Source: Thiobacillus sp. SCUT-2
GTDB taxonomy: Bacteria > Pseudomonadota > Gammaproteobacteria > Burkholderiales > Thiobacillaceae
Direction: 5' to 3'
Length of the DNA: 64,000 bases
Assembly: GCF_035621355.1 (NCBI RefSeq)
Contig: NZ_CP141769.1
Coordinates: 2,232,001-2,296,000, forward strand
In this document: positions 34,676-54,386 of the stretch, piece after piece
Position numbering within the stretch: the first letter of the stretch is position 1
Layout: each line of letters begins with the position of its first letter
Made by a program: the position numbers and the translations under genes
Notes under the pieces: model-generated
The model's input: only the letters and a program-made list of their open reading frames with translations
Told to the model about the DNA's origin: nothing
Databases searched by the model: none

Positions 34676-36394
34676 TCAGGCGTTCCGGCGCATGGTGCCG
34701 GCATTCTCCGCCCAGCCGCCGCCGCTCGACAGCGGCACGTCGAGCAGCGCGGGCGGCGCGACGCCCAGCAGGCGATACAGTTCGCGCAGCTGGGTACGGT
34801 AGAGCTGCTCGAAGTCGCTGACGCTGCGGGCCGGGTTGTAGTCGCCGAACCACCAGAACCAGTCCGATCCTTCGCAAACGGCGAGCTGGCGGGTGGCGAG
34901 CGCAAGCTGGTCGGGGCCGAGCTTCTTCGCCGCCACCACGCTGTCGTACGCGTGCTTCGCCGCAACCAGGTAGTCCCAGCCGCGGTTCTTGTCGTCGGCG
35001 CCGATCCAGGTCGAGAAGCTGCCGTACACCCAGCTTCCGGCGGCGAGCCGCTTCAAGGGCACGGCAGGCAGCGACGTCGCCAGCTCCGCAAAGGTCCCGA
35101 CCTTGAGCGTGGCGTGCCCCGCCAGCGCGTTGTAGAGGCCGTCGAGGAAGAAATGACCGTTGTCGGGGTAGTACTCCCAGGCATTCTCGCCGTCGAGAAT
35201 GACCGAGACGACATGGCGGTTCGCCTCCTTGCCGAAGAACGCCGCGATGTTCTCCAGATGCTGGACGAAGTCGCCGACCGCATCGTCGGCGTGCCAGTCG
35301 CTGTACTTGAAGCCGATGAGATCCGACAGTCCGTCGTCGCGGAAGAACAGGCGGGTCGTGTGGCCGTCGACGTGCGACGGCGAGAACAGCGTGCGCTTGT
35401 TCTGCAAGGCCTCGTCCGGACAGCCCGACTTGGCACAGCTGTTGCGCCAGACGCCCTCGCCCGACGCCGTCCACGCGAAGCCCATGGCGTCGAGCTGCGC
35501 GAGCGCATCCTCGCTCACCCCGCCCTCGGAGAGCCATACGCCCGCGGGCTTGCGCCCGAAGTAATGCTCGAACACGGCGGCGCCGTGCTCCAGGTGCCAG
35601 CGCGACCGCTCGGCCCCTCCCGGGTAGGCAGGCGCTTCGGGAGCGGGGGCATCCGGAAGCGCGTCGCGCAGGTTGGCGAAGTCGTTCAGCAGGGGAACGA
35701 TGGGATGGCCGTAGGGCGTCATCGACAGCTCGACCTGGCCGCGTTCGGCCAGCGCGCGATAGCGCGGGATCAGCCCGGCCATGCAGTGCTGCATCAGGTG
35801 CAGCAGCTCGTGGCGATCCGCCGAGGAGTAGCCGCCTTCCTGCGCCGTCAGGCGCTTCGCGAGCGGCAGCTGCCTGAGCGAATGACCGAGCCAGGCCAGG
35901 TGGTACCAGGTCAGCAGATCGAGGAAATACTGCTCCGACAGATAGCCCGGCAGCTCCTTCAGATCATCGCGGACCGGCGTCTCGCCGCCGGCGCCGACCA
36001 TGTCCAGCAGGTGGCGGAACGGCGGATGGGGATCGATCATGCGCGGGCCGTGGCAGCGCTGGCAGTCCTGGATGATGCGTATCCGGCCCGCACGATCCGA
36101 CGGGATGCGCTCGATGCCGGACAGCAGGTTGAGCAGATGATCCTGGGTCGGCTTGCCGTGCTTGAGCAGCGCGTCGAGCTGGCGCGCGTAGTCGTCGAGC
36201 TGCTCCAGCAGCACCGGCGCGAAGTTCACCACCGCGCGCATGTCGGGGTGCCGCTCGAGGTGCGCCGCCATGTCGCTGTAGTCCTTGATGCCGTGCAGGT
36301 ACACCCAGGGCAGGTGATAGGCCCCTTTCAGCCCCTCGCGGTAATACGGCTGGTGCATGTGCCAGCACAGCACCACGTTCAGCGACTTAGCCAT
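34676..36394 (-). CDS. Glycoside hydrolase family 57 protein
   Basis: A 572-residue cytoplasmic protein starting [20 protein letters not shown], the GH57 N-terminal signature. The barrel contains [26 protein letters not shown] (nucleophile region, Glu) and [18 protein letters not shown] (acid region with DGENAW). GH57 includes alpha-amylases, amylopullulanases and branching enzymes; which one is unclear. Unusual are a CQRCH motif near residue 113 and [11 protein letters not shown], suggesting a metal-binding or disulfide site. It overlaps glgC by 8 nt and is part of the glycogen operon. Confidence 0.9.
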
Positions 36395-37706
36395 CGAACT
36401 CGTCCTGCCAGTGGGCGTAGAGGTTCTGCCCGAGCATGGCGGGCGTCACCAGCACGATGCCCTCCGGCGTGACGTGGAAGCGCTTGGCATCCTCGGCCAG
36501 GTTCTCGCCGATCACCGTCCCGTCGGGGATGACCGTCCCCTTGTCGACGATCGCCCGGCTGAGGCGGCAATTGCGGCCGATGGTGACCTTCGGCAGGATC
36601 ACGCTGTCCTTGATCAGGCTGTAGCTCTCGACCGTGGTGGCGAAGAACAGCACGGACCGCTTGACGCGCGCGCCCGACAGGATGCAGCCGCCGGCGATCA
36701 GGGAGTCGATCGCCTCGCCGCGGCGCCCCTCGTCGTCGAACACGAACTTCGCCGGCGGGTATTGCGGCTGGTAGGTCCAGATCGGCCAGTCGCGGTTGTA
36801 CAGATTGAGCTCGGGCTCGACCGAGCACAGCTCCATGTTGGTCTGCCAGTAGGAAAACAGCGTGCCCACGTCGCGCCAGTAGGCAGGCTCGCCATCCCGG
36901 TTGCGGAACGGATACGCCATCGCGCGCGCCTCGCCGATCTTGGACGGGATGATGTCCTTGCCGAAGTCGTGCGAAGAATGCGTGTCGCTGGCGTCGTCGA
37001 TCAGCGTCTTGTATAGGAAGTCCTTGGAGAAGACGTAGATGCCCATCGACACCAGCGCGGTGTCCGGCCTCCCGGGGATGCAGTCGGGGTGCCTGGGCTT
37101 CTCCGAGAAATGCGTGATGCGCATGTGCTCGTCGACCGACATGACGCCGAATGCGCTCGCCTCCGACACCGGCACCTCGATGCTGCCGACGGTGAAGTCC
37201 GCGCCGGTCTGCACGTGGTACAACAGCATCTCCGAATAGTCCATCGTGTAGACGTGGTCGCCGCCCAGCACCAGCACGTACTCGGGATGGTGGCGCTGCA
37301 TGATGTCGATGTTCTGGAACAGCGCGTCGGCGGTGCCCTGGTACCACTCCTTCTTGTGGGTGCGCTGCTGCGCGGGCAGGATTTCGACGAACTCGCCGAT
37401 CTCGGCGCGCATGAAGCCCCAGGCGCGCTGCAGGTGCCGGATCAGCGAATGCGACTTGTACTGCGTCAGCACGCCGATGCGGCGGATGCCGGAATTGACG
37501 CAGTTCGACAGCGGGAAATCGATGATGCGGTACTTGCCGCCGATCGGGACCGCCGGCTTGGCTCGCCACGCCGTCAGGTCCTTGAGCCGCGAGCCTTCGC
37601 CGCCCGCGAGCACGAGCGCAAGCGTCTTGCGCGTGAGATCGGTGACGGTCTTGGGTTCGGTGTAGTAGCGGTAAAGGCGTCCCTGTTCGGCCTTCGATAA
37701 TGTCAT
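36387..37706 (-). CDS. glgC: Glucose-1-phosphate adenylyltransferase
   Basis: A 439-residue ADP-glucose pyrophosphorylase, committing step of glycogen synthesis. Motifs: [44 protein letters not shown] (both cited in part), [30 protein letters not shown] and the C-terminal left-handed helix repeats. Arginines near the N-terminus ([15 protein letters not shown]) fit the allosteric site region. Lies between glk and the GH57 gene. Confidence 0.97.
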
Positions 37707-37734
37707 GCGGCGCTCCTCCTTGTTGCGTCCTTGT

Positions 37735-38730
37735 TCATCGACTCGCTGAGTGCCCCCACGCGTCGGATGGCGATTGCGCGAGCGCCAGCGCGCCCGCCAC
37801 CCCCAGTCGCCCGGTGGTGACCAGAAAAACCGGCGTCTCTTCGACCGCGGCCCGCATCCGCCCTTTGGCGACGGCCGCTGCCATGAAGCGCGGCGAGCGC
37901 AGCCGCGCCTGCAGATGCACGCTCACGCCGCCGGCGATATAGAGGCCGCCCTGCGGCCGGTACATCAGCGCGACGTTGCCGATCCATGCGCCGTAGAGAT
38001 CGACGAACAGGTCGAGCGCCGCTGCGGCCGCCCCGTCGCCCGCCTCCGCCCGCGCGACGAGAGCCGCGCCGTCGACCGGGGTGTCCGCCAAGGGCAGACC
38101 GCGCTCGACGCAGCAGAAACGGTGCAGGTCGTTCATCGCCGAGCCCGAGACGGCGCGCTCCCACGACACGTGACCGTAGGCCCGCCGCAAATGTTCCAGC
38201 AGCCGCGCCTGAACCGTATCGGCCGGCGCAAAATCGATGTGGCCGCCCTCCGAGGCGAAGCCGCGGTAGCGCCCCGCGGCATCGGGCAGCATGAAGGCGA
38301 GCCCGAGGCCGGTCCCTGCACCGGTGACCGCACGCACCCCTCCCGGTTGCACCGGCACCGGGTTGAGCGCGACGACGTCGTCCGCGCCCAGGGTCGCCAC
38401 GCCGGCGGCGGCCGCCTGGAAGTCGTTGACGAAGCACACCTGCCGCAGCCCCAGCGCGGCCTGCAGCGCATCGGCGTCGACGGTCCAGTCGAGATTGGTG
38501 AGCCGTACCCGGCGCGCGTGCAGCGGGCCCGGCAACGCCAGGACCAGCGTGTCCGGCAACGCATGCCGGCCGGCATCGCCGACGAACTGCCGCACCAGCG
38601 CCTCGGCTGACGCGAAGGCCGCGCTCGGGTAGATCTTCTCGAACTGCAGCGTCGCCGTGCCTCCCGCTTCGCCCGCCGCCCATGCCAGCCAGCTCTTGGT
38701 TCCGCCGATATCGCCCGCGATCCACTCCAT
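37735..38730 (-). CDS. glk: Glucokinase
   Basis: A 331-residue ATP-dependent glucokinase of the Glk (E. coli) type: [16 protein letters not shown] phosphate loop, [44 protein letters not shown] with the zinc-free Glk pattern, and [14 protein letters not shown]. It returns free glucose from glycogen or maltodextrin breakdown to glucose-6-phosphate. 8 nt after pgi and 28 nt before glgC. Confidence 0.95.
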
Positions 38731-38738
38731 CTTTCTAA

Positions 38739-40412
38739 CTATAGGCCAGGGTGCGGCTGGCTCAGGCGCCGGCAATAGTCGATGAGGGCGTTGGTCGAGG
38801 CGTCGTGGCCGCCCGCCGGGACGTCGGCGTGCAGTTCGGTCAGGATGCGGCTGGCCAGCTGCTTGCCGAGCTCGACCCCCCACTGGTCGTAGGAATCCAG
38901 GTTCCAGATCACGCCCTGCACGAAGATCTTGTGCTCGTAGAGCGCGACCAGCATGCCGAGGGCGTGGGGCGCGAGCTGGGTCAGGACGATCGCATTGGAC
39001 GGGTGGTTGCCTTCGAACACCTGGTAAGGCGAGGCCTGGCCGGTCTGCGCGCGGGTTTCCTCCAGCGTGCGGCCCCGCATCAGCGCCTCGGTCTGGGCGA
39101 GAAAGTTGGCGATCAGGATGTCGTGATGCGCCTGCATGTCGGGCGTGTGCGGCGCAAGCGAGATGATGAAATCGGCCGGTATCAGCCGCGTGCCCTGGTG
39201 CAGCAGCTGGTAGAACGCGTGCTGGCCGTTGATTCCGGTGGCGCCCCAGACGATCTGGCCGGTCGGATAGTCGACGACGTGGCCGTCGCGGTCGACCGAC
39301 TTGCCGTTCGATTCCATGTCGGCCTGCTCCAGATAGGCCGGCAGGCTCCGGAGGTAATGGTCGTAGGGCAGGATGGCATGCGATTCGGCGCCGAAGAAGT
39401 TGTTGTACCAGACACCCAGCAGGGCAAGGACGACGGGCATGTTCCTGTCGAGCGGCGCATGGCGGAAGTGCTCGTCCATCTCGTGCGCGCCTTCGAGCAG
39501 TTCGACGAAGCGCTCGCCGCCGACCGCCAGCACGATCGACAATCCGATCGCCGACCACAGCGAATAGCGTCCGCCGACCCAGTCCCAGAATTCGAACATG
39601 TTGCCCGGATCGATGCCGAAGGCGACGACGGCGTCGCGGTTGGTCGACACCGCGACGAAATGCTTCGCGATGTGCTTCTCCGCCTGCGACTGCGCCAGGA
39701 ACCATTCGCGTGCAGTGTGCGCGTTCGTCATCGTTTCCTGGGTCGCGAAGGTCTTCGACGACACGACGAACAGCGTCGTCTCCGGATTGAGCGTTTCGAG
39801 CGTCTCCTTCACGTGGGCGCCGTCGACGTTGGATAGGAAATGCACCTTGAGGCGCGGATGGCGGTAGGGCTTCAGGGCCTGGTAGACCATCTGCGGCCCG
39901 AGGTCCGAGCCGCCGATGCCGATGTTGACGACGTCGGTGATGCGCTCGCCCGTGTAGCCGCGCCAGACGCCGCTGCGCACCTGCTCGGCGAACGCGCCCA
40001 TGCGCCCGATCACCGCGTTCACCTTCGGCATCACATCCTCGCCGTCGACGATGACCGGGCGGTTGCTGCGATTGCGCAGCGCGACGTGCAGCACGGCCCG
40101 GTTCTCGGTGTGATTGATCTTCTCGCCGGCGAACATGCGCTCGCGCCAGCCGGCGACGTCGGCCTCCTGCGCGAGCTGCAGCAGCAGCCTCATCGTCTCG
40201 TCGATGATGCGGTTTTTCGAGTAATCGAGCAGCACCTCGCCGACCTGCAGCGAAAACCGCTCGAACCGGCGCGGATCGGCCGCGAACAGCTCGCGCATGT
40301 GCACGCCCGCAATCTGCGCCTGGTGCGCCTTCAGCTGCCTGCACACCGGGCGGTGCAGCGAGCCGTGACTCTCATCCTGCTGCGCTTGCGCGCGTGCCGA
40401 CGGTGCCATCAT
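38739..40412 (-). CDS. pgi: Glucose-6-phosphate isomerase
   Basis: A 557-residue isomerase linking fructose-6-P and glucose-6-P. Blocks: [67 protein letters not shown] and [20 protein letters not shown]. The start is taken at a double ATG (40410-40412) with GGAG 6-9 nt upstream; longer forms add sequence unlike other Pgi proteins. First gene of the eight-gene minus-strand glycogen operon, so carbon enters here from gluconeogenesis. Confidence 0.96.
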
Positions 40413-40795
40413 CGTTTCTCCAGGGACTGCCGGGCCATGCCGCATTGTCGTTCGATCGACACCAAGCAACGGCCATGCCATTGACCAAAATAACGGGCTC
40501 TTCCGTTAACCATAGGCAAAATTGGTGATGCTCCGATGACACGTCCTCATCTTGGATGGGATTCGGCCGATAAATTCCCCGGCCGATGCCACAAAACGGT
40601 TCAACGATGCCCCGGAATCGTGCCGTCCGACTGGTACAGTCCTTGCAGATTACCCGTCGGGCACGGCGGCGACCGAACGATCGCCGGAATCGAAACGGCA
40701 AGCGCTTGTTTTCATTGGGGCGCGAAACCGGACGGGCGCGCCGCCCTGTTCATCATTCGGCAGCGGCCGGCGAAATATCGGAAGAGGTACAGGAC
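40413..40795. other. 383-nt divergent region between pgi and the EPS cluster
   Basis: Carries the sigma-54 promoter of the exopolysaccharide cluster (40632-40647). It is less GC-rich than its surroundings in the part near 40490-40570. No convincing gene; an in-frame extension of the epimerase through here lacks a ribosome site and is unlike the family. Confidence 0.6.
40632..40647 (+). promoter_or_regulatory. Sigma-54 promoter (-24/-12)
   Basis: TGGTACA, 4 nt, TTGCA: matches the RpoN consensus TGGYRYR-N4-TTGCW at every position. Transcription would start near 40659, leaving a leader of about 137 nt before the epimerase ATG. RpoN promoters need an enhancer-binding activator, so the downstream cluster is probably tightly regulated. 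Confidence 0.8.
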
Positions 40796-41779
40796 ATGCA
40801 TGTTTTGATCACGGGCGGCGCAGGCTTCATCGGCTCGCACCTGGCGGACCACCACCTGGCGCGCGGCGACCAGGTTTACGTCGTGGACAACCTCAGCACC
40901 GGATCGCTCGCGAACGTCGCCGCGTTTCGCGGCCACCCCGGCTTCCGCTTCGCCGAGGCCGACATCCTCCACTGGAACGGGCTCGGCGAGGCCGTGGCCT
41001 GGGCCGACCGCATCTATCACATGGCGGCGGTCGTCGGCGTGAAGAAGGTGCTGGAAGATCCCGTCGCCGTGATGTCGACCAACATGACCGGCACCGAGCG
41101 CGTCCTGCGCGCCATCCACCATGGCGGCTGGAACCCGCAGGTCATCATCGCCTCGACGTCGGAGGTCTACGGCTTCAACCCGCAGAGCAGCTTTGCCGAA
41201 AGCGACTACATCGTGCTGCCGTCGGCCGGCCGGCTGCGCTGGGCCTACGCCGTCACCAAGCTGGCCGACGAGTTTCTCGCCTTCTCCTACGCGCGCAAGT
41301 ACGGCCTCCATATCGTGGTCGCGCGCCTGTTCAACACCATCGGCCCCAACCAGGTCGGCCACTACGGCATGGTCGTGCCGCGCTTCGTCCGCCAGGCCGT
41401 CGACGGCGATCCGCTCACCGTCTACGGCGAAGGCACCCAGACGCGCTCGTTCTGCGACGTGCGCGACACCGTGGTCGCGCTGGACCAGCTCGCCGGGTGC
41501 CCCGAGGCCTGGGGCGAGGTGGTGAACGTCGGCAACGACCAGGAAATCTCGATCCGCGCGCTCGCCGAGCTCATCGTGCAGCGCGCGCGCAGCACCTCGC
41601 CGCTGCATTTCGTGTCCTACAAGGACGCCTACGGCGAGGAATTCGAGGATGTCACCCACCGCCGCCCGGTGCTCAACAAGCTGCGCGCACTGACCGGATT
41701 CAGCCCCGAATGGACCCTCACCCGCACGCTGGAAGACTTGATCGAACGCGAACGCGCCAAAATCCGGCGCGTGGCGTAA
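40796..41779 (+). CDS. NAD-dependent sugar-nucleotide epimerase/dehydratase
   Basis: A 327-residue short-chain dehydrogenase of the extended type: MHVLITGGAGFIGSHLAD with the GxxGxxG NAD site, IIASTSEVYGFNP with the catalytic Ser/Thr region, and WAYAVTKLADEF giving the YxxxK pair. Motif spacing is like UDP-glucuronate decarboxylase and UDP-glucose 4-epimerase relatives. It would supply an activated sugar for the glycosyltransferase that follows. First gene after a sigma-54 promoter. The exact reaction cannot be read from sequence. Confidence 0.87.
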   Translation: MHVLITGGAGFIGSHLADHHLARGDQVYVVDNLSTGSLANVAAFRGHPGFRFAEADILHWNGLGEAVAWADRIYHMAAVVGVKKVLEDPVAVMSTNMTGTERVLRAIHHGGWNPQVIIASTSEVYGFNPQSSFAESDYIVLPSAGRLRWAYAVTKLADEFLAFSYARKYGLHIVVARLFNTIGPNQVGHYGMVVPRFVRQAVDGDPLTVYGEGTQTRSFCDVRDTVVALDQLAGCPEAWGEVVNVGNDQEISIRALAELIVQRARSTSPLHFVSYKDAYGEEFEDVTHRRPVLNKLRALTGFSPEWTLTRTLEDLIERERAKIRRVA

Positions 41780-41787
41780 ACGTCACC

Positions 41788-41793
41788 TAGAAT
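41788..41793 (+). promoter_or_regulatory. Possible -10 box of the glycosyltransferase gene
   Basis: TAGAAT followed by 8 nt and the ATG at 41802; if used, it would give a leaderless mRNA. It may add a sigma-70 entry inside the sigma-54 cluster. Confidence 0.35.
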
Positions 41794-41801
41794 AGGCCGC
41801 C

Positions 41802-43193
41802 ATGGCAACCACTCCGTATTTCATTCTCAGCCCGAACACGGTGCTGAGCCTCATCGGCCTCGCCCACGGGCCGGACAAGACCCTCCCCAACCCCGCAGAA
41901 GACTGGCGCGAAGCCACCGTCGACGTCGTCATTCCGGCCTTCAACGAGGAAAGCAACATTCCCCTCTGCCTGGCCGCGCTGGCCCGCCAGACCCGCAAGC
42001 CGACGCGCATCATCCTCGTCGACGACGGCAGCAGCGACCGCACCGTCGAATACGCCCAGACCTTCTGCGATCTCAACGGCATCGACCTGATCACCATCCG
42101 GCGCGCCCGGTCGATCGGCAAGACGCCGACGCTGAAGCGCCAATCGCGCGAATTCGACTCCGACGTCCAGTTCATCCTCGACGGCGACACCGTGCTCGAG
42201 TCGGAGAACTACATCGACCGCGTGGTCGAGGAACTCTACAAGGGCGCCGGGATCGCCAGCGCCTGCGGCACCGTGCTGCCCCTGCGCGACCGCGACCGCC
42301 GCGCGATGCTGAAGGCCGAGCCCCTGCAGACCTTCCTGCGCTCCCACCCCGAGGCGACCATCTACCCCAAGGTGGGCTGGTTCCATCACCTGCAGCGCGG
42401 CGTCACCGACATGTATCGCGACGTGCTGTACTATTTCCTGCAGAAATTCGTGTACCTGGGGCAGGTGACCTTCTTCGGCAGCATCCTCAATCCGGTGGGC
42501 TGCGCGGTCGCCTACCGCCGCGACGTGCTGAAGACCATCGTGTTCGACCGCTACGAGCCCCTGCTCGGCGACGACCTCACCAACTCGGAGGACATCTTCA
42601 TCGGCTTCGCGATGAACGACAACGGCTACCGCAACATCCAGCTCACCGACGTCTACGCCCGCTCGCAGGAGCCGGAGGTCGGCCGCGTGCCGGGGCAGAT
42701 CTACCTGTGGTCGTCGTCCTTCCTGCAAAGCTGCTACTACTTCGACGAGCTGATGCGCAGCCCGTTCAAGGCGTTCAAGCGCTACCGGCACAAGAAGCAG
42801 GAAGCCTCCACGCGGACCGGCGGCGGTGCCGACAAGCGCGTCCATTTCGAGCAGTACCGCCAGCCGTTCGGCGCGGACTACACGCGCAAGTACGGCCGCC
42901 CCATCGGCTGGGTGCTGTTCATGTCGGCCTTCGAGAAGGTGGCCTTTCCGACCGTGCTGCTGATCATGATCATGCTGCAGCTGTGGGAGCCGCTCGCGAT
43001 CACGCTGGCGGCGGAAACGGCGGTCGGCACCGCCATCCTGGTCACCGTCGCCAAAGGCCACCGCCTCGAATACTTCCTCAAGAGCCTGCTCGTGATGCCG
43101 CTGCGCTACGCCGTGCTGCTGTTCGATCTCGTCACCATCGGCCGCTTCGCCGCCGATCTCTGGATCTTCCGCAACCGCAGGTGGCGCAAATGA
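41802..43193 (+). CDS. Membrane glycosyltransferase, family 2 (polysaccharide synthase)
   Basis: A 463-residue GT2 protein. The cytoplasmic catalytic domain shows VDVVIPAFNEESNIPLCL, ILVDDGSSDRTVEYA, VQFILDGDTVLESENYI and GDDLTNSEDIFIGFAMND (the D, DxD-like and ED motifs). The usual QxxRW product-binding motif is not evident; the corresponding region reads PGQIYLWSSSFLQS. Near the C-terminus there are hydrophobic segments (FPTVLLIMIMLQLW; AETAVGTAILVTVA; LRYAVLLFDLVTIG), as in PgaC/HAS-type processive synthases. It overlaps the exporter gene by ATGA, so synthase and exporter are made together. Confidence 0.88.
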   Translation: MATTPYFILSPNTVLSLIGLAHGPDKTLPNPAEDWREATVDVVIPAFNEESNIPLCLAALARQTRKPTRIILVDDGSSDRTVEYAQTFCDLNGIDLITIRRARSIGKTPTLKRQSREFDSDVQFILDGDTVLESENYIDRVVEELYKGAGIASACGTVLPLRDRDRRAMLKAEPLQTFLRSHPEATIYPKVGWFHHLQRGVTDMYRDVLYYFLQKFVYLGQVTFFGSILNPVGCAVAYRRDVLKTIVFDRYEPLLGDDLTNSEDIFIGFAMNDNGYRNIQLTDVYARSQEPEVGRVPGQIYLWSSSFLQSCYYFDELMRSPFKAFKRYRHKKQEASTRTGGGADKRVHFEQYRQPFGADYTRKYGRPIGWVLFMSAFEKVAFPTVLLIMIMLQLWEPLAITLAAETAVGTAILVTVAKGHRLEYFLKSLLVMPLRYAVLLFDLVTIGRFAADLWIFRNRRWRK

Positions 43194-45511
43194 GGCAATC
43201 CTGGCTGTTCCCCCTCGTGCTCGCCGCCAGTGCACCGCTCGCTGCGCTGGCCCAGTCGGTTCCCGACGCCGGCCTGCACGCCGAGATGCAGGGCCACTGG
43301 AGCGAAGCGGTCGACGTCTACGCCCAGGCGCTGAAGGCCAACCCCGCGCAGGCGAATCTCTGGGAGCGCATCGCCGACATCCGCGCCACCCGTCTGAAGA
43401 TGCCGGAAGCCGCCGCCGACGCCCTGCGCGAGGCGACCCGCTACGCGCCCGATGACGCGCGCCTGCACTACAAGCTTTCGCAGGCGTACGCCGCGATCCA
43501 GAAGGGACCGAGCGCGCTCACCGCCATCAGCCGGGCCGTCGAGCTCGATCCGGGCAACCCGACCTACCTGCGCGCGCGCGGCGAGATCGCGCTGTGGACC
43601 GGCTACTACCTCGTGGCCGGCGACAGCTTCGAGCGGATTCTCGCGGCCTCGCCGCGCGACGCCGACGCGCTGCTCGGTCTCGCCCGCGCCAGCGCGCGCG
43701 GCGGCAAGAAGGACGCCGCCGTGCCGCGCTACCGTGCCTATCTCGCCGAGCGCCCCCAGGACAAGGACGCCATGCTCGAATACATGGAGCTCGAGGCGGA
43801 GCGCGGCAACACGCAGGCGGTGCAGGAATACGACGGGATCTATCGCCAGCGCTTCGGCGCCGGCAAGGACTACTGGCTGCGCATGGCCGACATCTACGCG
43901 CTCGCCAACGATCCGGCCGCTTCTTCGGCGGCGCTGAAGGAGGCGAGCCGCCTCGCCCCGCAGGACGCCGCCCTGTTCCATCGCCTGGCGCAGAGCTATC
44001 CGACCGAAAAGGACGCGAAGGCGTCGGCGGCGGCGATCGAGCGCGCCGTCGAACTCGACCCGAAGAACCTCGAATATCTGCGCACCCGCGCCGACCTCGC
44101 GTCCTGGCGCGGCGACTACGCCATGGCACTCGACAGCTACCGGCGCATCCTCGCCCTCGCGCCGGACGATCCCGGCGCCCGCCTCGGCATCGCCCGCGTG
44201 CAGTACTGGCGCAGCGCGCTGGGCGAGTCCGCCTGCGCCTACCGCGACTACCTCGCGCGGCAGCCCGGCGTCGCCGCGGCGTGGATGGAATACATCGTCG
44301 TCGTCACCGAAATGGGCGACTACGCGCGCGCGACGGAACTGCTGGAGGATTACCGCACGCGCTTCGGCGACAACGTCGCGTACCGCAAGCAGAAGGCGCG
44401 CGTGCTGGCCTGGGCCGAGCGCCCCACCGCCGCGCTCGGCGAAGTCGCCGAGCTCGACCGCACGCTGCGCGACGACTACGAACTCGACTACACCCGCACC
44501 ATCGCCCTGCACTACGCCCATCGGCCACGCGAGGCGCTGGCCAGCCTTGCCGCGGTCGCACGGCTGCGCCCGAACGACAAGGAGACGCTCGATCTCGCCC
44601 GTTTCGTGCGCACGCCCCTGCGCTCCAACGCAACGATCGACTTCGGCTACCACGCCGGCTCCGACGACGTCAGCATCCGCCACGCCGGCGTGCGCGGCGA
44701 GTATGTCATCAACCCGGAAACGCGTCTCTTCGGCGGCGCCGACCACCAGTGGCTCCATGCCGACGCCGGCAGCGGCTACGAAAAGCCCGACGGCGGTACC
44801 TCGCTCGGCTACAACCGCGCCTGGCTCGGCATCCAGCATCGCGTGTCCCCCCAACTCTCGCTCGATGCGCAAGCCGGAGGCGGCAGCGCGGAAGGCGACA
44901 GCCGCTTCATCTACGAAGTCGGCGCCGACCTGCAGCCGGGCGACACGCTCGCGATGCGGCTGTCGCGCCGGCAGGATCTGTTCGCCGTCTCGCCGCGCGC
45001 CGCCAAGCTCGGCATCGAACGGCGCGCCAATACGCTCGACGCCACCTGGACGCCCGACCTGCGCTGGACCGTGCCGGGACGCCTGGGCTACGACACGCTG
45101 TCCGACGGCAACACGCGCTGGGAGGCCGAGCTTGCGCCGCGCCGCGCCGTCCTGCGCAGCCAGCGCCTGAATCTCGACCTGGGCGTGAGCGGCCGCTGGT
45201 TCGGCTTCGACGACGACCCGGGGCACGGCTACTACGCCCCCTCGCTCTACCAGCGCTATGCGCTGACCGCCTTCACCTACTGGAAGATCAGCGACGATGA
45301 CGGCGTGAGCGTGGCCTTCAGCTACGGACCCTACAAGGACAACACGATGGGCGGCTTCCGTGCCGGCGGCGACATCGTCGCCGAGGGCTTCTTCGGCCTC
45401 TACCGCGACTGGTTCCTCGACGTGAAGGCCGGCGTGTCGCGCTACGGCGGCGGCGCCACCGCGGGCTACCGTTCGGCGCTGTTCGAGGTCAGTCTGACGC
45501 GCCGCTTCTGA
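43190..45511 (+). CDS. TPR / outer-membrane beta-barrel exopolysaccharide exporter
   Basis: A 773-residue exported protein: signal peptide RQSWLFPLVLAASAPLAALA, then about 450 residues of tetratricopeptide-like repeats (units such as AVELDPGNPTYLRARGEIAL and AVELDPKNLEYLRTRADLAS), then an aromatic and glycine-rich beta-barrel region from about residue 480 ending in SLTRRF, the terminal Phe expected for an outer-membrane protein. The TPR-plus-barrel design is that of PgaA and BcsC, which guide a polymer across the periplasm and outer membrane. Coupled to the synthase gene by ATGA. Confidence 0.85.
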   Translation: MRQSWLFPLVLAASAPLAALAQSVPDAGLHAEMQGHWSEAVDVYAQALKANPAQANLWERIADIRATRLKMPEAAADALREATRYAPDDARLHYKLSQAYAAIQKGPSALTAISRAVELDPGNPTYLRARGEIALWTGYYLVAGDSFERILAASPRDADALLGLARASARGGKKDAAVPRYRAYLAERPQDKDAMLEYMELEAERGNTQAVQEYDGIYRQRFGAGKDYWLRMADIYALANDPAASSAALKEASRLAPQDAALFHRLAQSYPTEKDAKASAAAIERAVELDPKNLEYLRTRADLASWRGDYAMALDSYRRILALAPDDPGARLGIARVQYWRSALGESACAYRDYLARQPGVAAAWMEYIVVVTEMGDYARATELLEDYRTRFGDNVAYRKQKARVLAWAERPTAALGEVAELDRTLRDDYELDYTRTIALHYAHRPREALASLAAVARLRPNDKETLDLARFVRTPLRSNATIDFGYHAGSDDVSIRHAGVRGEYVINPETRLFGGADHQWLHADAGSGYEKPDGGTSLGYNRAWLGIQHRVSPQLSLDAQAGGGSAEGDSRFIYEVGADLQPGDTLAMRLSRRQDLFAVSPRAAKLGIERRANTLDATWTPDLRWTVPGRLGYDTLSDGNTRWEAELAPRRAVLRSQRLNLDLGVSGRWFGFDDDPGHGYYAPSLYQRYALTAFTYWKISDDDGVSVAFSYGPYKDNTMGGFRAGGDIVAEGFFGLYRDWFLDVKAGVSRYGGGATAGYRSALFEVSLTRRF

Positions 45512-45545
45512 GGCCCCCTGCGGCATCGGCGCCCCGCTCTCCCGC

Positions 45546-46493
45546 ATGATCCGCCGCCTGCTTGGCCTCCTCCTGCTGCTGCCGCGCCTGGCCGCCGCGG
45601 CCGCGCCGCAGCCGGCGGTGGCCTTCACCTTCGACGATCTCCCCTACGCCGCGGTGGTGTCGGACGACGATGCCACGCTCGGCAGCATGACCGCGCATCT
45701 CGTGCAGCGGCTGCGGGCCGCGCAGGTGCCGGTGGTGGGCTTCGTCAACGAAGGCAAGCTCTACCGCGACGGCGAGCCGGATCCCGCACGGGTCGCACTG
45801 CTGCGCACCTGGCTCGACGCCGGCTTCGAACTCGGCAACCACACCTATTCGCATCCCTCGCTCGACCAGGTGCCGCTCGAGGCCTTCGAGGCCGACGTGC
45901 TTCGCGGCGAAGCCGTCACGCGCCCGCTGACGCAGGCGGCCGGCCGCACCCTGCGCTGGTTCCGCCATCCCTTCCTGCACGAAGGCACGACGCCGGACGT
46001 GCGCACCGCCTTCGCCCGCTTCCTCGCCGAACACGGCTATCGCGTCGCGCCGGTGACGGTCAACAGTGCCGAATGGGTGTTCGCCGCGGCCTACGCGAAC
46101 GCGCTTGCGCAGGGTGACGCCGACGCCGCCGGCCACATCGCCGCGGCCTACGTACCCTACATGCAGACGGCGTTCGCGCAGGCCGAGCAGCTCGCGCTCG
46201 ACCTGTTCGGCCGCCCGATCCCGCAGGTCGTCGTGCTGCACGCCAACCAGCTCAATGCCGACCATGTCTACACGCTCGTCGCCATGCTGCGGCAGCGCGG
46301 CTACCGCTTCGTCTCGCTGGACGACGCGCTGGCCGACCCCGTCTACGCGACGCCGCCGGGCGTCACCGGCGTCGAGGGCGAATCCTGGCTCGAAGGCTGG
46401 GCGCGCCAGGCCGGGCTGCGCCCCCCGGCGCTGCCGCCGCTGCCCGGGCTGGTGCGGCAGTGGGCGGGCCGTGCCGCCTACGGCGCCAACTGA
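45546..46493 (+). CDS. Secreted polysaccharide deacetylase (NodB domain)
   Basis: A 315-residue protein with signal peptide (MIRRLLGLLLLLPRLAAAAA). The NodB/CE4 motifs are present: AVAFTFDDLPY (catalytic Asp plus metal Asp), GNHTYSHPSL (metal histidines), LRWFRHPFLHEG and VVVLHANQLNADHV. It would remove N- or O-acetyl groups from a polysaccharide in the periplasm, as PgaB does for PNAG, but without PgaB's fused hydrolase domain. The GH10-like gene begins 1 nt after its stop, so the two act as a pair. Confidence 0.9.
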   Translation: MIRRLLGLLLLLPRLAAAAAPQPAVAFTFDDLPYAAVVSDDDATLGSMTAHLVQRLRAAQVPVVGFVNEGKLYRDGEPDPARVALLRTWLDAGFELGNHTYSHPSLDQVPLEAFEADVLRGEAVTRPLTQAAGRTLRWFRHPFLHEGTTPDVRTAFARFLAEHGYRVAPVTVNSAEWVFAAAYANALAQGDADAAGHIAAAYVPYMQTAFAQAEQLALDLFGRPIPQVVVLHANQLNADHVYTLVAMLRQRGYRFVSLDDALADPVYATPPGVTGVEGESWLEGWARQAGLRPPALPPLPGLVRQWAGRAAYGAN

Positions 46494-46494
46494 G

Positions 46495-47550
46495 ATGAGA
46501 CTCGGACGCAGCCTCGCCTTGATCGTATTCGCGCTGACGCTTGCCGCGACCTCGTCCGCCCCGGCCGCCACGCTGCGCAGTCTCGCGCCCGCCGCCGGCA
46601 TCCGGGTCGGCGCGGCGGTCGACGTCGAGGCCCTGGAGGCCGATCCGGCCTATGCCCGCCTGCTGGCGCGCGAATTCAACCTCGTGACGCCGGAGAACGC
46701 GATGAAATTCGCCGTCGTCCAGCCCGAGCGCGACCGCTACGATTTCACCCAGGCCGACGCCCTGGTCGCGTTCGCCGAAGCGCACGGGATGCAGGTGAAC
46801 GGCCACGTGCTGGTCTGGGACCGGCAGTTGCCCGATTGGCTGACCCAAGGCGGGTTCAGCCGCGACGAGCTGATGGCCATCCTGCGCGAGCACATCCGCA
46901 CGCTCGTCACGCGCTACCGCGGACGCGTCGCCTCGTGGGATGTCGCCGCCGAGGCGGTCGGCGAGGACGGCAAACTGCGCGACACGTTCTGGTCGCACGG
47001 CATCGGCCCCGACTACCTGGCGCTGGCCTTCCGCTGGGCGCACGAGGCCGATCCACAGGCACGCCTGCGCTACAACGACTACGGCGGCGAGGGCGCCGGC
47101 GCCAAATCCGACGGCATCTACCGGCTCGTCGCCGATTTGCGCCAGCAGGACGTGCCGATCGACGCCGTCGGCCTGCAGATGCACGTCGGCCTCGACGACG
47201 CCCCGCGCGCCGACGACGTGCGGATCAACATGAAGCGCCTGGCGGCGCTCGGGCTGCAGACCGACATCACCGAGATGGACGTGATGCTTCCGCTGCCCGC
47301 ACGCGGCACCGCCTTGCGCCGGCAGGCGCGGGTGTATGGCGCCATGCTGCAGGCCTGCCTCGCCGTGCCGCAGTGCCGCAGCTTCTCGACCTGGGGCGCG
47401 AGCGACGCACACTCCTGGATCCCCGAATATTTTCCGGGCCAGGGCGCGGCCCTGCTGTTCGCGGCCGACGGCCGCCCGAAGCCTGCCTGCGAAAGCGTCC
47501 GCGGCGTGCTCCGGCGCGCCGGGGCAGACAAACGCCGCCGGGTGGAATAA
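46495..47550 (+). CDS. Secreted GH10-like glycoside hydrolase, altered motif
   Basis: A 351-residue exported protein (signal LGRSLALIVFALTLAATSSA). The fold is GH10 (endo-xylanase family): EFNLVTPENAMKFAVVQPE, GMQVNGHVLVWDRQLPDWL, acid/base Glu153 in SWDVAAEAVGEDG and nucleophile Glu260 in TDITEMDVM. However, the nearly invariant WDVVNEA is WDVAAEA, so the Asn next to the acid/base is Ala, and YNDYNIE is YNDYGGE. It may cut an unusual polymer or act weakly. It ends the cluster and probably trims or processes the exported polysaccharide. Confidence 0.85.
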   Translation: MRLGRSLALIVFALTLAATSSAPAATLRSLAPAAGIRVGAAVDVEALEADPAYARLLAREFNLVTPENAMKFAVVQPERDRYDFTQADALVAFAEAHGMQVNGHVLVWDRQLPDWLTQGGFSRDELMAILREHIRTLVTRYRGRVASWDVAAEAVGEDGKLRDTFWSHGIGPDYLALAFRWAHEADPQARLRYNDYGGEGAGAKSDGIYRLVADLRQQDVPIDAVGLQMHVGLDDAPRADDVRINMKRLAALGLQTDITEMDVMLPLPARGTALRRQARVYGAMLQACLAVPQCRSFSTWGASDAHSWIPEYFPGQGAALLFAADGRPKPACESVRGVLRRAGADKRRRVE

Positions 47551-47778: not shown

Positions 47779-48657
47779 GTGGAAGCAGGCTTCATGCCCC
47801 AGGGCCGGCGAGGCTTCCTCGTGGCCCTTGCGCTGTCATTGACGCTTCACGCCGGCCTCGTGGCAGGATGGAGGGCCCACGCGCCGCCACCGCCCGCCCC
47901 GATGGCAACGTCCTCGGCCCCTTTGCAGATCAGCTTCGCGGCGGCGCCCCATCCGAAGACGCACGCCGAGACCGACCACGCGAAACCCCGCCCCACGCGA
48001 ATCGCAGCCACGCCCCCGGATGCGGCGAAGAACCGAAACGCCCCGGTCGCGGATTCCGCTCCGCCCGCAGCGGAGGCGCCATCGGCCTCGATGCCGGCGC
48101 CGCCGGCGCCGACCGCGGAGGAATGGAAGCTCGCCTCCACCTACACGCTCAAGAACAGCAAGCGTTACCGCTACACCTGGGCGCAGCAGGTCCGGAGCAT
48201 GATGGGAACGGCGGTGGAAGGACCGCAGCAGGGCATGGTCCGGCTCCATATCGAGATCGCGCCCGACGGCAGGCTCGCCAAGGCGGACGTGCTGTGGTCG
48301 ACCTCGGAGACTGCGGAGAAGCTTGCCCTGCAGGCCATCCGGTCGCTGCCGCCGCTGCCGCCGACCCCGACCGGCAAGCCGCTGGTTTTCGACAAGACCA
48401 TCGCGTTCATGCCCTACGAGACCGGCTGGCCGCCCGTCTACAAATACGACTGCATCCCGGACCCGCCGTCCTTCCATAACCGCTTCGCGCAGAACGGCGC
48501 GGCGACCCGGGCCACCCCGCGCGAGCCTGCCGAGGGCGATGCCTCCGGGACCGACTGCTCGCCCGACGACACCGCGGATTCCATCGAGGCGGAAGAGAAG
48601 GACATGCAGCGCCAGTTCAAGGAATGGGGCGCGGGGCGCTTGAACGGGGTGGAGTGA
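47779..48657 (+). CDS. TonB-like energy-transducer protein
   Basis: A 292-residue protein: one N-terminal membrane helix (GFLVALALSLTLHAGLVAGW), a proline/alanine-rich stretch of about 70 residues that would span the periplasm, then a TonB C-terminal-like domain (MVRLHIEIAPDGRLAKADVL, ETAEKLALQAIRSLPPLPP). A 50-residue acidic tail follows, unusual for TonB. No ExbB/ExbD or receptor is adjacent, so the partner is unknown. GTG at 47779 has GGAG upstream; ATG at 47794 is an alternative start. Confidence 0.75.
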   Translation: MEAGFMPQGRRGFLVALALSLTLHAGLVAGWRAHAPPPPAPMATSSAPLQISFAAAPHPKTHAETDHAKPRPTRIAATPPDAAKNRNAPVADSAPPAAEAPSASMPAPPAPTAEEWKLASTYTLKNSKRYRYTWAQQVRSMMGTAVEGPQQGMVRLHIEIAPDGRLAKADVLWSTSETAEKLALQAIRSLPPLPPTPTGKPLVFDKTIAFMPYETGWPPVYKYDCIPDPPSFHNRFAQNGAATRATPREPAEGDASGTDCSPDDTADSIEAEEKDMQRQFKEWGAGRLNGVE

Positions 48658-48803: not shown

Positions 48804-48890
48804 TGGTGCCGGGAGGGGGACTCGAACCCCCACACCCTCACGGGCGGCGGATTTTGAATCCGCTGCGTCTACCGATTCCGCCATCCCGGC
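48804..48890 (-). tRNA. tRNA-Leu (anticodon CAA)
   Basis: An 87-nt class II tRNA on the minus strand. The acceptor stem GCCGGGA pairs with the 3' end before an encoded CCA (48804-48806); the anticodon loop TTCAAAA has CAA at 48854-48856; a long variable arm and GGTTCGAGTCC T-arm are present. It decodes UUG. It points away from the CRISPR locus. Confidence 0.97.
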
Positions 48891-49116: not shown

Positions 49117-49146
49117 AATATACAGGGAGGCAGCGGTGGAAGACAA
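49117..49146 (-). promoter_or_regulatory. tracrRNA promoter overlapping the cas9 start
   Basis: On the minus strand TTGTCT (49146-49141) and TATATT (49122-49117) are 18 nt apart. The -35 lies inside cas9 codons 2-4 and the -10 just before the cas9 ribosome site, placing the tracrRNA start at about 49109-49110, exactly at the anti-repeat edge. Confidence 0.65.
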
Positions 49147-52100
49147 CACCCGGAATTTGACTTTTGGTTTCGATATCGGGATCGCCTCGGTCGGCTGGGC
49201 TGTCCTTGCCCCAAACCGGATCGTGTCTCTTGGGGTGCGCGCATTCGACAAGGCTGAAACCGCCAAGGAAGGCGAACCCCTGAATCTTGCACGGCGGTCT
49301 GCCCGATTGATGCGCCGACGCCTGTATCGCCGCGCGTGGCGTCAAACCAAGGTCGCACGCCTGCTCAAACGTGAAGGCTTGATTGCGGACATCGAACTGT
49401 TACGCGGGCAGCGCCCGGCACCGATATCGCCATGGCAACTGCGCGTGGAAGGGCTCGACCGCCTGCTCGCTCCCGATGAGTGGGCGCGTGTGTTGTACCA
49501 CCTGTGCAAGCACCGGGGCTTCCATTGGATCAGCCGCGCCGAAGAAAGAAAGGCAGGCGAAGACGCCAAGGGTGAAGGCGGGAAGGTAAAGAAGGGGCTC
49601 GCCGCCACCGCCAGCCTGATGCGCGATAAAGACTATCGAACCGCGGCGGAAATGCTGCTCAAAGAGTTCCCCGATGGTCCGCAACGCAACAAGCAGGGCG
49701 ATTACGGGAAAGCATTGTCGCGCGTTCTGCTCGCCGACGAAGTGCATCTTCTGTTTGAATGCCAGCACACATTCGGCAACCCGCACACCAGCGATGATCT
49801 TCGGACGGCCATTTTAGGAAATGGCGACCGCAAAAGTGGTCTGTTCTGGTTACAGAAACCCGCGCTGTCTGGAGACAACCTGCTCAGAATGCTCGGGCGT
49901 TGCACGTTCGAGAAAGCCGAGTTCCGCGCACCCAAGGCCAGCTTCACTTCCGAGCGGCATGTCTGGCTCACCCGGCTCAACAACTTGCGTATCGTGACCA
50001 ACGGTATAACGCGTCCGCTCAACGAACAGGAACGGCAGATCGCGCTGCCTCTCCCGTACAACCAGGCTGGCGATCTCACCCATAAGCAATTGCGCGCCGC
50101 CATGACCAAGGGTGGCTTGTGGGACGAGACGTATCGCTTCGCCAGATTTTCTTACGCGCAGACAGCGGACGGAAAAGTCAAAGACCCGGAAAGCGCTGTG
50201 CTGGTCAAGCTCCCCGCCTGGCAGGAGTTGCGCAAACAGATGAAGGATAGGGGGCTGGAGACCGAATGGCAAAGCCTGACAGGTGCCGCCCAATCCGGAA
50301 ACCCTGACGTGCTGGACCGCATCGCCTGGGTGCTGTCCGTCTACAAGGACGATACGGAAGTCGAACGGGAGCTTCGCGCGCTTGGCCTGCCGGGTGGGCA
50401 AGCGATGATCGATGCACTTTCGGAAATTCGCTTCGACAAGTTCAGCAATCTCTCGCTCAAGGCCTTGCGCCTGATCGTGCCCCATATGGAAGCAGGCATG
50501 CGCTATGACGAAGCCTGTGAAGCAGCCGGCTACCACCACAGCCAGCTGTTCAAGACGGGAGAAGGCGAAGAACGCTACCTGCCCCCGTTCTATTCGGGCC
50601 GAGACAAACATGGGCGCATGCTGTTCAACGATGAACTCGACATCCCGCGCAATCCGGTGGTGCTGCGCGCCCTCAATCAGGCACGCAAGGTAATGAATGC
50701 TCTGATCCGCAAATACGGATCACCCGCGTCAGTACACATTGAGATGGCACGCGACTTGTCCAAGCCATTTGACGACCGCAGGGATATCAAGAAAGAGCAG
50801 GACGAATACCAGAGGCGTAACCGCGAAGACAAAGCGCGCTTCGCCGAGCATTACGGCCAGATGCCCAAAGGCCAGGAATTCGACAAGTGGCGGCTGTACC
50901 GGGAGCAACAAGGGAAGTGCGCCTATTCCATCGAGCCGATTGACCTGAACCGATTACTCGAACCAGGATATGTCGAGATCGACCACGCCCTGCCTTATTC
51001 ACGCAGCTTCGATGACAGCAAGAACAACAAGGTTCTGGTGCTCGCGAAGGAAAACCGGGACAAGGGCAACGCCACGCCCTATGAATATCTGGATGGCGAG
51101 AACAACAGCGAGCGCTGGCAACGTTTCGTCGCCTATGTCGAGGGCAACAAGGCCTACCGGCTCGCCAAGCGAACCCGACTCTTGCGCAAGAACTTCGGTA
51201 CGGAAGAAGCCCGTGATTTCCGGGAGCGCAACCTCAACGATACCCGTTACATCAGCAGGTTCTTCAAAAACTACGTCGAGCGTTACCTGAAGCTGGCGGA
51301 TGGGAGCGAATCGAAGCGGTGCGTCGTGCTGTCCGGCCAACTCACCGCTTTCCTGCGTGCGCGTTGGGGTTTGTTGAAAATCCGAACCGACAGCGACCGG
51401 CATCACGCGCTGGACGCCGTCGTGGTCGCGGCCTGCAGCCACGGCATGGTCAAGCGCTTGTCGGACTATTCGCGCCGCAAGGAGCTCGAAGCGGTGCGCG
51501 ATGGATTCATCGATCTCGAAACCGGCGAGATCGTGAACCACGCCATGTACAAGCAATTGAAGGAACACTTCCCCGACCCCTGGCCGGGTTTCCGCCACGA
51601 ACTGGAAGCGCGCTTGTTCATCGACAACCCTGTGCAATTGCGCGCCGCTGTCGAGGGCCTTGGAAGTTATCCGGCAGATGAACTGGAACCCCTAAAACCG
51701 CTGTTCGTCTCGCGCGCGCCGCAGCGTCGCAACGGCGGCGCCGCACACAAGGACACCATCTACGCCCAGCCCAAACGACTCAAAATTCAAGGCGGCGTCA
51801 CGCAGAAAATCCCGCTCGCCAGCCTGACGCTGAAGGATCTTGACACGCTTGTCGAACCACACCGAAACGGGAAACTGTATGCAGCCATCCGTGAACGACT
51901 CGAGGCGCATGGCGGCAAGGGTGACAAAGCCTTCCCCGCAGGCAACCCGCTGCGCAAGCCGGATCGGGGCGGCAACCCGAATGGTCCGATTGTTCGTTCC
52001 GTCACCAAGGTCATCGACAAACAATCCGGCATACCCGTGCGCGGAGGCCTCGCCAAGAACGACAGCATGTTGCGCGTAGACGTGTTCACTAAGGATGGCA

Positions 52101-52531
52101 AGTTCCATCTGGTTCCCGTCTATGTCCATCACAAGGTGAAAGGATTACCGAATCGGGCAATCGTGGCCTTCAAGGACGAAGCGGAATGGACTGTGATCGA
52201 CGACGGGTTTAATTTCTGCTTCTCGCTGCACCCGAATGACTTCGTGAAGGTCACGCAGCGCTCCGGTGAAAACATCTGCGGGTATTACAGAGGCTGCCAC
52301 AGCGGCACGGGTGCAATAAATGTCGCCCTGCATGATCGATATGCATTCGGCGAAAAGACCACCAGTCTCGCATTCAGTAAAAAAAGCCCCGGCAAGCCAA
52401 TTCCTAACGACAAGCTCGGTTTGATAGAGGGGATTGGGGTAAAACTCGCTGCGAACATCGAGAAATTTCATATCGATGTACTCGGTAATCTCTATCCCGC
52501 CCCGCCGGAGATGAGGCGTGACCTGGCGTAG
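49136..52531 (+). CDS. cas9: CRISPR-associated endonuclease Cas9, type II-C
   Basis: An 1131-residue Cas9, slightly larger than the Neisseria enzyme. All catalytic parts are present: RuvC-I GFDIGIASVGWAVL (Asp13), arginine-rich bridge helix at about 52-79 (ARRSARLMRRRLYRRAWR), RuvC-II SVHIEMARDLS (Glu536), HNH VEIDHALPYSRSFDDS (Asp616, His617, with Asn640 completing the site) and RuvC-III RHHALDAVVV (His756, Asp760). The C-terminal wedge/PAM-binding part is unlike any I can assign, so the PAM is unknown. GTG start with AGGGAGG 8 nt upstream. cas1 overlaps its end. Base composition is visibly less GC-rich than neighbours, suggesting horizontal acquisition. Confidence 0.97.
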   Translation: MEDNTRNLTFGFDIGIASVGWAVLAPNRIVSLGVRAFDKAETAKEGEPLNLARRSARLMRRRLYRRAWRQTKVARLLKREGLIADIELLRGQRPAPISPWQLRVEGLDRLLAPDEWARVLYHLCKHRGFHWISRAEERKAGEDAKGEGGKVKKGLAATASLMRDKDYRTAAEMLLKEFPDGPQRNKQGDYGKALSRVLLADEVHLLFECQHTFGNPHTSDDLRTAILGNGDRKSGLFWLQKPALSGDNLLRMLGRCTFEKAEFRAPKASFTSERHVWLTRLNNLRIVTNGITRPLNEQERQIALPLPYNQAGDLTHKQLRAAMTKGGLWDETYRFARFSYAQTADGKVKDPESAVLVKLPAWQELRKQMKDRGLETEWQSLTGAAQSGNPDVLDRIAWVLSVYKDDTEVERELRALGLPGGQAMIDALSEIRFDKFSNLSLKALRLIVPHMEAGMRYDEACEAAGYHHSQLFKTGEGEERYLPPFYSGRDKHGRMLFNDELDIPRNPVVLRALNQARKVMNALIRKYGSPASVHIEMARDLSKPFDDRRDIKKEQDEYQRRNREDKARFAEHYGQMPKGQEFDKWRLYREQQGKCAYSIEPIDLNRLLEPGYVEIDHALPYSRSFDDSKNNKVLVLAKENRDKGNATPYEYLDGENNSERWQRFVAYVEGNKAYRLAKRTRLLRKNFGTEEARDFRERNLNDTRYISRFFKNYVERYLKLADGSESKRCVVLSGQLTAFLRARWGLLKIRTDSDRHHALDAVVVAACSHGMVKRLSDYSRRKELEAVRDGFIDLETGEIVNHAMYKQLKEHFPDPWPGFRHELEARLFIDNPVQLRAAVEGLGSYPADELEPLKPLFVSRAPQRRNGGAAHKDTIYAQPKRLKIQGGVTQKIPLASLTLKDLDTLVEPHRNGKLYAAIRERLEAHGGKGDKAFPAGNPLRKPDRGGNPNGPIVRSVTKVIDKQSGIPVRGGLAKNDSMLRVDVFTKDGKFHLVPVYVHHKVKGLPNRAIVAFKDEAEWTVIDDGFNFCFSLHPNDFVKVTQRSGENICGYYRGCHSGTGAINVALHDRYAFGEKTTSLAFSKKSPGKPIPNDKLGLIEGIGVKLAANIEKFHIDVLGNLYPAPPEMRRDLA

Positions 52532-53748: not shown

Positions 53749-53752
53749 CCAG

Positions 53753-53805
53753 AAAAAAATAACCCACAAACCCGCTCAAAACCAGGCGCTGAGCGGGTCT
53801 GTGGG
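53753..53805 (-). terminator. Terminator of the CRISPR array (minus strand)
   Basis: 16-nt arms 53763-53778 and 53790-53805 pair at 15 of 16 positions around an 11-nt loop, with a run of seven T on the minus strand (A-run 53753-53759). It lies between cas2 and the array, facing transcription coming from the array. It may also slow cas2 transcripts. Confidence 0.85.
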
Positions 53806-53811
53806 CGGGGT

Positions 53812-54349: not shown

Positions 54350-54386
54350 GAGCCCCTTGCGGGGCGGTCTATAAATAGGCGCCCGC

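Follow-up and report, generated by a model that had tools for sequence, protein, structure and literature searches.

The closest described plan to the locus reported here is that of pgaABCD, which serves poly-N-acetylglucosamine (PNAG) and combines an inner-membrane family 2 glycosyltransferase (GT2), a tetratricopeptide repeat (TPR) protein with an outer-membrane porin, a CE4 deacetylase, and a glycoside hydrolase. The locus is a cluster of five genes in the sulfur-oxidizing bacterium Thiobacillus sp. SCUT-2, lying in a stretch of 64,000 nucleotides (nt) of contig NZ_CP141769.1 (positions 2,232,001 to 2,296,000), which was analyzed as a whole and is called the window below. In order, the genes encode a short-chain dehydrogenase/reductase (SDR), a membrane GT2, a TPR/beta-barrel protein, a NodB-type CE4 deacetylase, and a glycoside hydrolase family 10 (GH10) protein. 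The parts of the PNAG plan are thus in common, but PgaB fuses deacetylase and hydrolase whereas the cluster has separate CE4 and GH10 genes, its hydrolase is a GH10 protein, and a nearly constant SDR is added. In PgaA/PgaB, a TPR scaffold is described as coupled to the deacetylase and hydrolase (PMC9384988); a similar coupling in the cluster would be only an analogy.

We propose, with somewhat less than even confidence, that the cluster makes an exopolysaccharide by a synthase-dependent route under sigma-54 control and that a 2-amino-pentose, most likely N-acetylxylosamine (XylNAc), is a constituent of the polymer. The original paper on the UDP-N-acetylxylosamine (UDP-XylNAc) pathway is said to be that of Gu et al. 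from 2010. In Bacillus cereus NVH 391-98, a UDP-N-acetylglucosamine (UDP-GlcNAc) 6-dehydrogenase and UXNAcS (accession GU784843) make UDP-XylNAc, and the passages on this pathway name no polymer (PMC5078965). Judged from that description, it has in common with our proposal a dehydrogenase and a decarboxylase acting on a UDP-N-acetylhexosamine. No xylosamine polymer and no such operon was found in the open-access literature, surveyed mostly at the level of listings and with subscription journals mostly outside it. An open-access search likewise returned no literature on Thiobacillus exopolysaccharides, and the words GH10, xylan, and Thiobacillus are absent from a survey of synthase-dependent operons (PMC7112194). 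Two candidate sources were rejected: the clusters tabulated in the Rubrivivax EmbRS paper are of the wza/wzx/wzy and kps kind, and in the Bordetella b-Cool paper UDP-XylNAc was met only in the reference list.

Gene set and conservation

The five open reading frames (ORFs) are consecutive on the + strand and span 40796-47550, where the earlier note had placed them, and the type of each was confirmed by Pfam. The exopolysaccharide-type operon with a PNAG-like plan and a split deacetylase and hydrolase is therefore real as described there. The gaps SDR/GT2, GT2/TPR, TPR/NodB, and NodB/GH10 are 22, -4, 34, and 1 nt; only two of the four junctions, and not three, are overlapping or within 1-2 nt (GT2 and TPR share 4 nt; NodB and GH10 are 1 nt apart).

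The source genome is a single contig of 3.0 Mb. Its nearest named relatives are Thiobacillus, with a GT2 94% identical. Counting the genome itself, the GT2 was present at more than 300 bits in 12 of 36 genomes of the genus, and at E 1e-40 in 9 of 399 genomes of the order, 10 of 369 of the class, and one of 398 of the phylum (the window genome). The weakest match in the order, class, and phylum draws had 602 bits and nothing lay between it and the E limit, so that the cluster GT2 forms a distinct subfamily.

Forty other distinct loci were collected through the GT2, which is therefore present in 40/40 by construction; the window itself, four copies (L088-L091), and short loci from the genus, order, class, and phylum draws were left out. 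The exporter gene occurred in 40/40, the SDR in 39/40, the deacetylase in 23/40, and the GH10 gene in 21/40. Among them GH10 was never found without the deacetylase, and L037 holds only a GH10 fragment. The gene order is kept in other genera too, and within the genus the cluster of L024 is that of Thiobacillus thioparus DSM 505. The conserved synteny with one GT2 subfamily that the earlier note had suggested looking for is thus present.

A sigma-54 type -24/-12 promoter (TGGTACAGTCCTTGCA, 40632-40647, + strand) scored 14 of a maximum of 16, which was reached by 2/100 shuffles of the upstream region of the window. We scanned 39 upstream regions, each against 100 shuffles, and 26 of these are Thiobacillus-like (the window, L021-L044, and L049). 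A site scoring 14-16 lies 151-168 nt 5' of the SDR start in 23 of the 26 (at most 3/100 shuffles each); the scan gave no such site in L040, L041, and L042. Among the 13 more distant regions only L047 scored 14, and elsewhere (-302). Since 23 of 26 have the site, the sigma-54 promoter claimed for the cluster holds for the Thiobacillus-like loci and not for the distant ones.

The SDR and its putative partner dehydrogenase

The first gene (40796-41779, + strand) encodes an extended SDR with a Pfam Epimerase match of 162.8 bits. Its designation as an epimerase is right as to family; its catalytic residues, however, are of the decarboxylase type, and the protein is probably a nucleotide-sugar uronate decarboxylase and not an ordinary epimerase, with UDP-XylNAc synthase as the candidate activity. 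A phmmer search of PDB placed UDP-glucuronate decarboxylase 1 on top (155.6-156.5 bits), with 8vr2, an NAD-dependent epimerase/dehydratase, near it (155.4 bits). According to Table 3 of PMC12820599, UXS, ArnA, and UAXS have in common the catalytic triad, Glu120, Arg144, Arg277, Asn176, and Ser119 (UXS numbers), and decarboxylases are described as carrying Glu where UDP-glucuronate 4-epimerase has Ser (PMC7984243). In an alignment of the window SDR with 29 related cluster SDRs, Ser122, Glu123, Arg148, Tyr151, Lys155, Asn180, and Arg289 were kept in 30/30 rows, and position 121 was Thr or Ser; the SDR of L079 has Ala at 122. Five epimerase-type rows (the TviC-like protein of the same genome, another TviC-like protein, GalE, L078, and L133) had neither the Glu nor Arg289, and LegB and RmlB had the Glu without the Arg. 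The TviC model gave 91.9 bits on the cluster SDR against a cut-off of 760, and 469 bits on the TviC-like gene elsewhere in the genome. In a tree, UXS and ArnA grouped with the cluster SDRs and the other rows fell outside this group (99/98); because the tree has long branches (ArnA, GalE, RmlB, LegB, and L078), we gave more weight to the residues.

The relatives of the cluster offered a second line of evidence, which the earlier note had missed. In four lineages the cluster has next to it a gene for a TviB-type UDP-GlcNAc 6-dehydrogenase, in three different positions: after GH10 in Sulfuriferula-type loci, before the SDR in Formivibrio and Extensimonas, and between SDR and GT2 in L079. TviB was the best named model for these neighbors (441-506 bits; 367 in L079), and TuaD, a UDP-glucose dehydrogenase, gave 86-106 bits. 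The window genome has a TviB-type gene at C1:131785, adjoining the TviC-like epimerase gene. TviB-type enzymes are encoded somewhere in 12 of 12 Thiobacillus genomes with the cluster and in 22 of 24 without it (fragments counted), and for this reason only physically adjoining dehydrogenases were taken as evidence. They suggest, without forcing it, that the substrate of the SDR is the uronate UDP-GlcNAcA. Compared through TviB and TviC only, the Vi antigen tvi system has the dehydrogenase in common with these four lineages and differs in that the cluster SDR is not TviC-like.

A further SDR, 47% identical and sharing the decarboxylase-type Glu and Arg residues, was seen on a Streptomyces plasmid (L126:8566-10972), where it adjoins a nucleotide-sugar dehydrogenase gene and glycosyltransferase/LCP genes. 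The best named model for that dehydrogenase was UDP-ManNAc dehydrogenase (272 bits), against 185 and 108 bits for UDP-glucose models. The same sugar may serve Gram-positive envelopes too.

The deacetylase and the GH10 protein

The fourth gene (45546-46493, + strand; Pfam Polysacc_deac_1, 56.5 bits) encodes a NodB-type CE4 deacetylase. Like those of the exporter and the GH10 protein, its signal peptide was judged by eye from the sequence, and the enzyme is read as secreted. The CE4 motif set is TFDD, HxxxH, RxP, and LH; the window protein has TFDD, HTYSH, RHPF, and LH, and D-D, H..H, R.P, and LH were kept in 22/22 rows. Its best PDB match was the acetylxylan esterase 2cc0 (E 5e-5).

The fifth gene (46495-47550, + strand) encodes the secreted GH10 protein, with 320.3 bits in Pfam GH10 (cut-off 22.1) and 290 bits against the endo-beta-1,4-xylanase TmxB (1vbr). 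Unlike such xylanases, it is encoded in an operon for polysaccharide synthesis. Thirteen residues are described as conserved at subsites -1/-2 of GH10, among them Asn152, which bonds the -1 xylose (PMC6163442). The window protein keeps 12 of the 13 and both catalytic Glu; the sole loss is Asn152, and AE (Ala152-Glu153; nucleophile Glu260) replaces the NE motif of xylanases. The family had been recognized in the earlier note and this change in the active site had not.

The change is general in the cluster. There are 26 cluster GH10 rows, or 23 without the copies L088, L090, and L091; of these, one cannot be read at the site and another, L037, is fragmentary. In the 21 distinct readable proteins, position 152 was Ala in 18 and Ser in three, giving AE or SE, and the acid/base Glu (21/21) and the nucleophile (22/22) were always kept. 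The background consisted of 31 rows of other Pseudomonadota GH10, that is 30 proteins (L096 and L097 belong to the same protein), with four further matches that have no locus left out; Asn was present in 31/31. In GH10, this Asn contacts O2, and the Trp308-type residue disfavors a C6. The window protein retains the Trp308-type -1 residues of xylanases; a pentose-type pocket with an altered C2 contact therefore fits 2-amino- or 2-acetamido-xylose. Two parallels exist outside GH10. Within clan GH-A, GH2_16 glucosaminidases have Ser in place of this Asn (SD), explained by a clash of Asn with the C2 amine (PMC12243196), and in the GH35 enzyme GlmA it is Asp (DE; PMC6566704).

The candidate synthase and exporter

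The second gene (41802-43193, + strand; Pfam Glycos_transf_2, 76.8 bits) encodes a membrane GT2, a candidate processive beta-glycan synthase. Such synthases have the motifs D, DxD, ED, and QxxRW. Aligned with five true PgaC, the cluster GT2 keeps D75, D127 and D129 (D127xD129), E263, D264, Q299, and W303, and has lost the Arg of QxxRW. Its identity to true PgaC is 20-22%, and the PgaC model gave 44.5 bits against a cut-off of 422.3 (601.5-632.6 bits for true PgaC). The CelA/BcsA model of cellulose (bcs) systems gave 16.7 bits with a cut-off of 699.1.

An AlphaFold model built from 17 cluster GT2s and five PgaC had a predicted local distance difference test (pLDDT) of 80.6 and a predicted template modelling score (pTM) of 0.84; a first model from nine close rows was dropped (pLDDT 52.9). 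Foldseek found an archaeal mannosyltransferase closest to it, then hyaluronan synthases and cellulose synthase, with template modelling (TM) scores by query of at most 0.6. The overall fold is like that of hyaluronan synthases (TM 0.54-0.60) and BcsA (0.41-0.53), at 13-16% identity. Hyaluronan synthase alternates two sugars, so the product may also be a heteropolymer.

The third gene (43190-45511, + strand) encodes a protein with matches to several Pfam TPR models and a PgaA-like C-terminal stretch, and is a candidate outer-membrane exporter on the strength of that stretch. TIGR03939 (PgaA) gave 89.5 bits (cut-off 366.65), the best part being residues 538-698 on model positions 566-723, in the barrel region. 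The protein ends in an invariant RRF, and outer-membrane barrels often have Phe as the last residue. The PrsT model of the PEP-CTERM exopolysaccharide type gave 89.6 bits against a cut-off of 312.2, a hit that does not amount to membership. With the PgaC, PgaA, CelA, and TviC models all far under their cut-offs, the view that the cluster matches no named system stands.

Proposed polymer and alternatives

The earlier note had ventured that the polymer might be new. The decarboxylase-type SDR, the change in the GH10 active site, and the TviB-type dehydrogenase in relatives turn this into a specific candidate, to which we give a little less credence than to the presence of a 2-amino-pentose: the operon would make beta-1,4-linked poly-(N-acetyl)xylosamine, an amino-xylan equal to chitin/chitosan minus C6, and the GH10 subgroup would have turned into an amino-xylanase. 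The gene set, its conservation, the active-site residues, and the family placements were computed; the sugar, the linkage, the homo- or heteropolymeric nature of the chain, and every activity are what we infer. A TviB-type 6-dehydrogenase, encoded next to the cluster in some lineages and elsewhere in the genome here, would oxidize UDP-GlcNAc to UDP-GlcNAcA, which the SDR, judged by its residues and neighbors, would decarboxylate to UDP-XylNAc. The membrane GT2 would polymerize it, probably with beta and 1,4 linkage, and the TPR/barrel protein would let the chain pass the outer membrane. N-acetyl groups would be stripped by the CE4 enzyme, whose motifs are intact, and the chain would be cleaved by the GH10 protein, fitted, as its residues suggest, to a pentose with an amino or acetamido group at C2. 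If true, this would join the few known synthase-dependent exopolysaccharide systems (PNAG, cellulose, Pel, and alginate) and have a polymer of its own, which may be new in kind; it would also give a use for the rare nucleotide sugar UDP-XylNAc and a GH10 subgroup of new specificity.

Several observations weigh against this proposal. Ala79 and Tyr84 (UXS numbers) are also among the signature residues of Table 3 of PMC12820599, where Ala79 is Cys in UAXS; these positions are Val80 and Val85 in 30/30 cluster SDRs, for which reason we call the protein UXS/ArnA-like and not UXS, and our confidence is lowered a little. NCBIfam ranked the models for the SDR as LegB 4,6-dehydratase (135.2 bits), dTDP-glucose dehydratase (127.4), ArnA (118.8), and UDP-xylose synthase (112.9), all far under their cut-offs; L078 (genome G124) has a TviC/GalE-like SDR adjoining its GT2; and the cluster SDR is set beside UXNAcS by pathway description and not by sequence. 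The neighboring dehydrogenases are all under the TviB cut-off of 592, neither the window set nor 34 of the 40 loci have a local dehydrogenase, and no TviB-type enzyme was detected in G372. A UDP-glucose-type dehydrogenase (TuaD, 490 bits) is encoded at C1:999667 in the window genome as well, and on this ground we rejected the idea that UDP-glucuronate (UDP-GlcA) is absent there. Regarding the hydrolase, the -2 residues vary in the background (Glu67 17/31, Asn68 12/31, Gln111 5/31), some perhaps by misalignment. The SE motif is also given for GH2_14, for which the passages on this motif name no amino sugar (PMC12243196), and the missing Asn therefore does not specifically prove one. Another gene with the canonical SNE lies beside the exporter in L076 (13059-14117) and L077 (3854-4813); it had no Pfam match, and its L077 copy matched nothing in PDB below E 0.14. 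By eye this gene resembles a TIM-barrel hydrolase and is possibly an alternative to GH10. Finally, the deacetylase was not seen in 17/40 loci and GH10 in 19/40, although contigs L036 and L073 end too early to judge, and because of this the polymer of such loci may differ or stay unprocessed.

Alternatively, the SDR could be a C4-epimerase after all and the polymer an aminouronate or GalNAc chain, Vi- or Pel-like and partly deacetylated. The adjoining TviB-type dehydrogenase, found as in Vi biosynthesis, the TviC/GalE-like SDR at the same place in L078, and the two lost UXS signature residues agree with such a chain; we still think it unlikely, given that the decarboxylase-type Glu and Arg are invariant in the 30 rows and that the TviC model scores so far below its value on the TviC-like gene of the same genome. 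If the SDR is a decarboxylase, the product could be an O-acetylated bacterial xylan, with UDP-GlcA converted to UDP-xylose, polymerized, O-deacetylated by an acetylxylan-esterase-like CE4 enzyme, and cut by a xylanase. The nearest PDB matches of both SDR and deacetylase, the Trp308-type residues, and the UDP-glucose-type dehydrogenase in the genome are what a xylan pathway would have; however, the Asn that bonds the -1 xylose is lost in 21/21 readable cluster GH10s and the adjoining dehydrogenases of the four lineages are of the TviB and not the UDP-glucose type, which makes a xylan rather unlikely.

It is quite improbable, in our judgment, that the GH10 protein is a binding or scaffolding protein with a decayed Asn and no hydrolase: a modelling study describes this Asn as important for substrate binding in GH10 (PMC4227162) and many loci do without the gene, yet both catalytic Glu are kept wherever they can be read, and Ala and Ser are the sole replacements of the Asn. 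Least probable of all, we consider, is a divergent PNAG-like system with a GlcNAc polymer, in which SDR and GH10 would be accessory or serve another polymer. Synthase, TPR/porin, deacetylase, and hydrolase follow the same plan and the PgaC and PgaA models match weakly, but the PgaC score and the identity to true PgaC are low, and no partner other than the exporter is as constant as the SDR. There is no PgaD gene in the operon, where the largest gap of 34 nt leaves no room for one; the rest of the genome was not searched for it.

Surroundings of the cluster

Upstream, on the minus strand (34676-40481), lie genes that by eye are GH57-like, GlgC-like, glucokinase-like, and phosphoglucose isomerase-like, that is, genes of glycogen/alpha-glucan and sugar-phosphate metabolism. 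Of the 29 loci L021-L049, 18 have the isomerase-like gene upstream of the cluster. On the other side, some 230 nt beyond GH10 and outside the conserved set, 47779-48657 encodes a TonB-like protein that matches TonB_C weakly, followed by a tRNA-Leu (caa) on the minus strand (48804-48890). A type II CRISPR-Cas locus extends over 49136-54351, with a Cas9-like ORF of 1131 amino acids (49136-52531) and cas1- and cas2-like ORFs, all named by eye. The locus also holds repeats of 36 nt with a spacing of 66 nt, eight copies in the stretch searched. A Cas9 relative also lies 3' of the cluster in L025.

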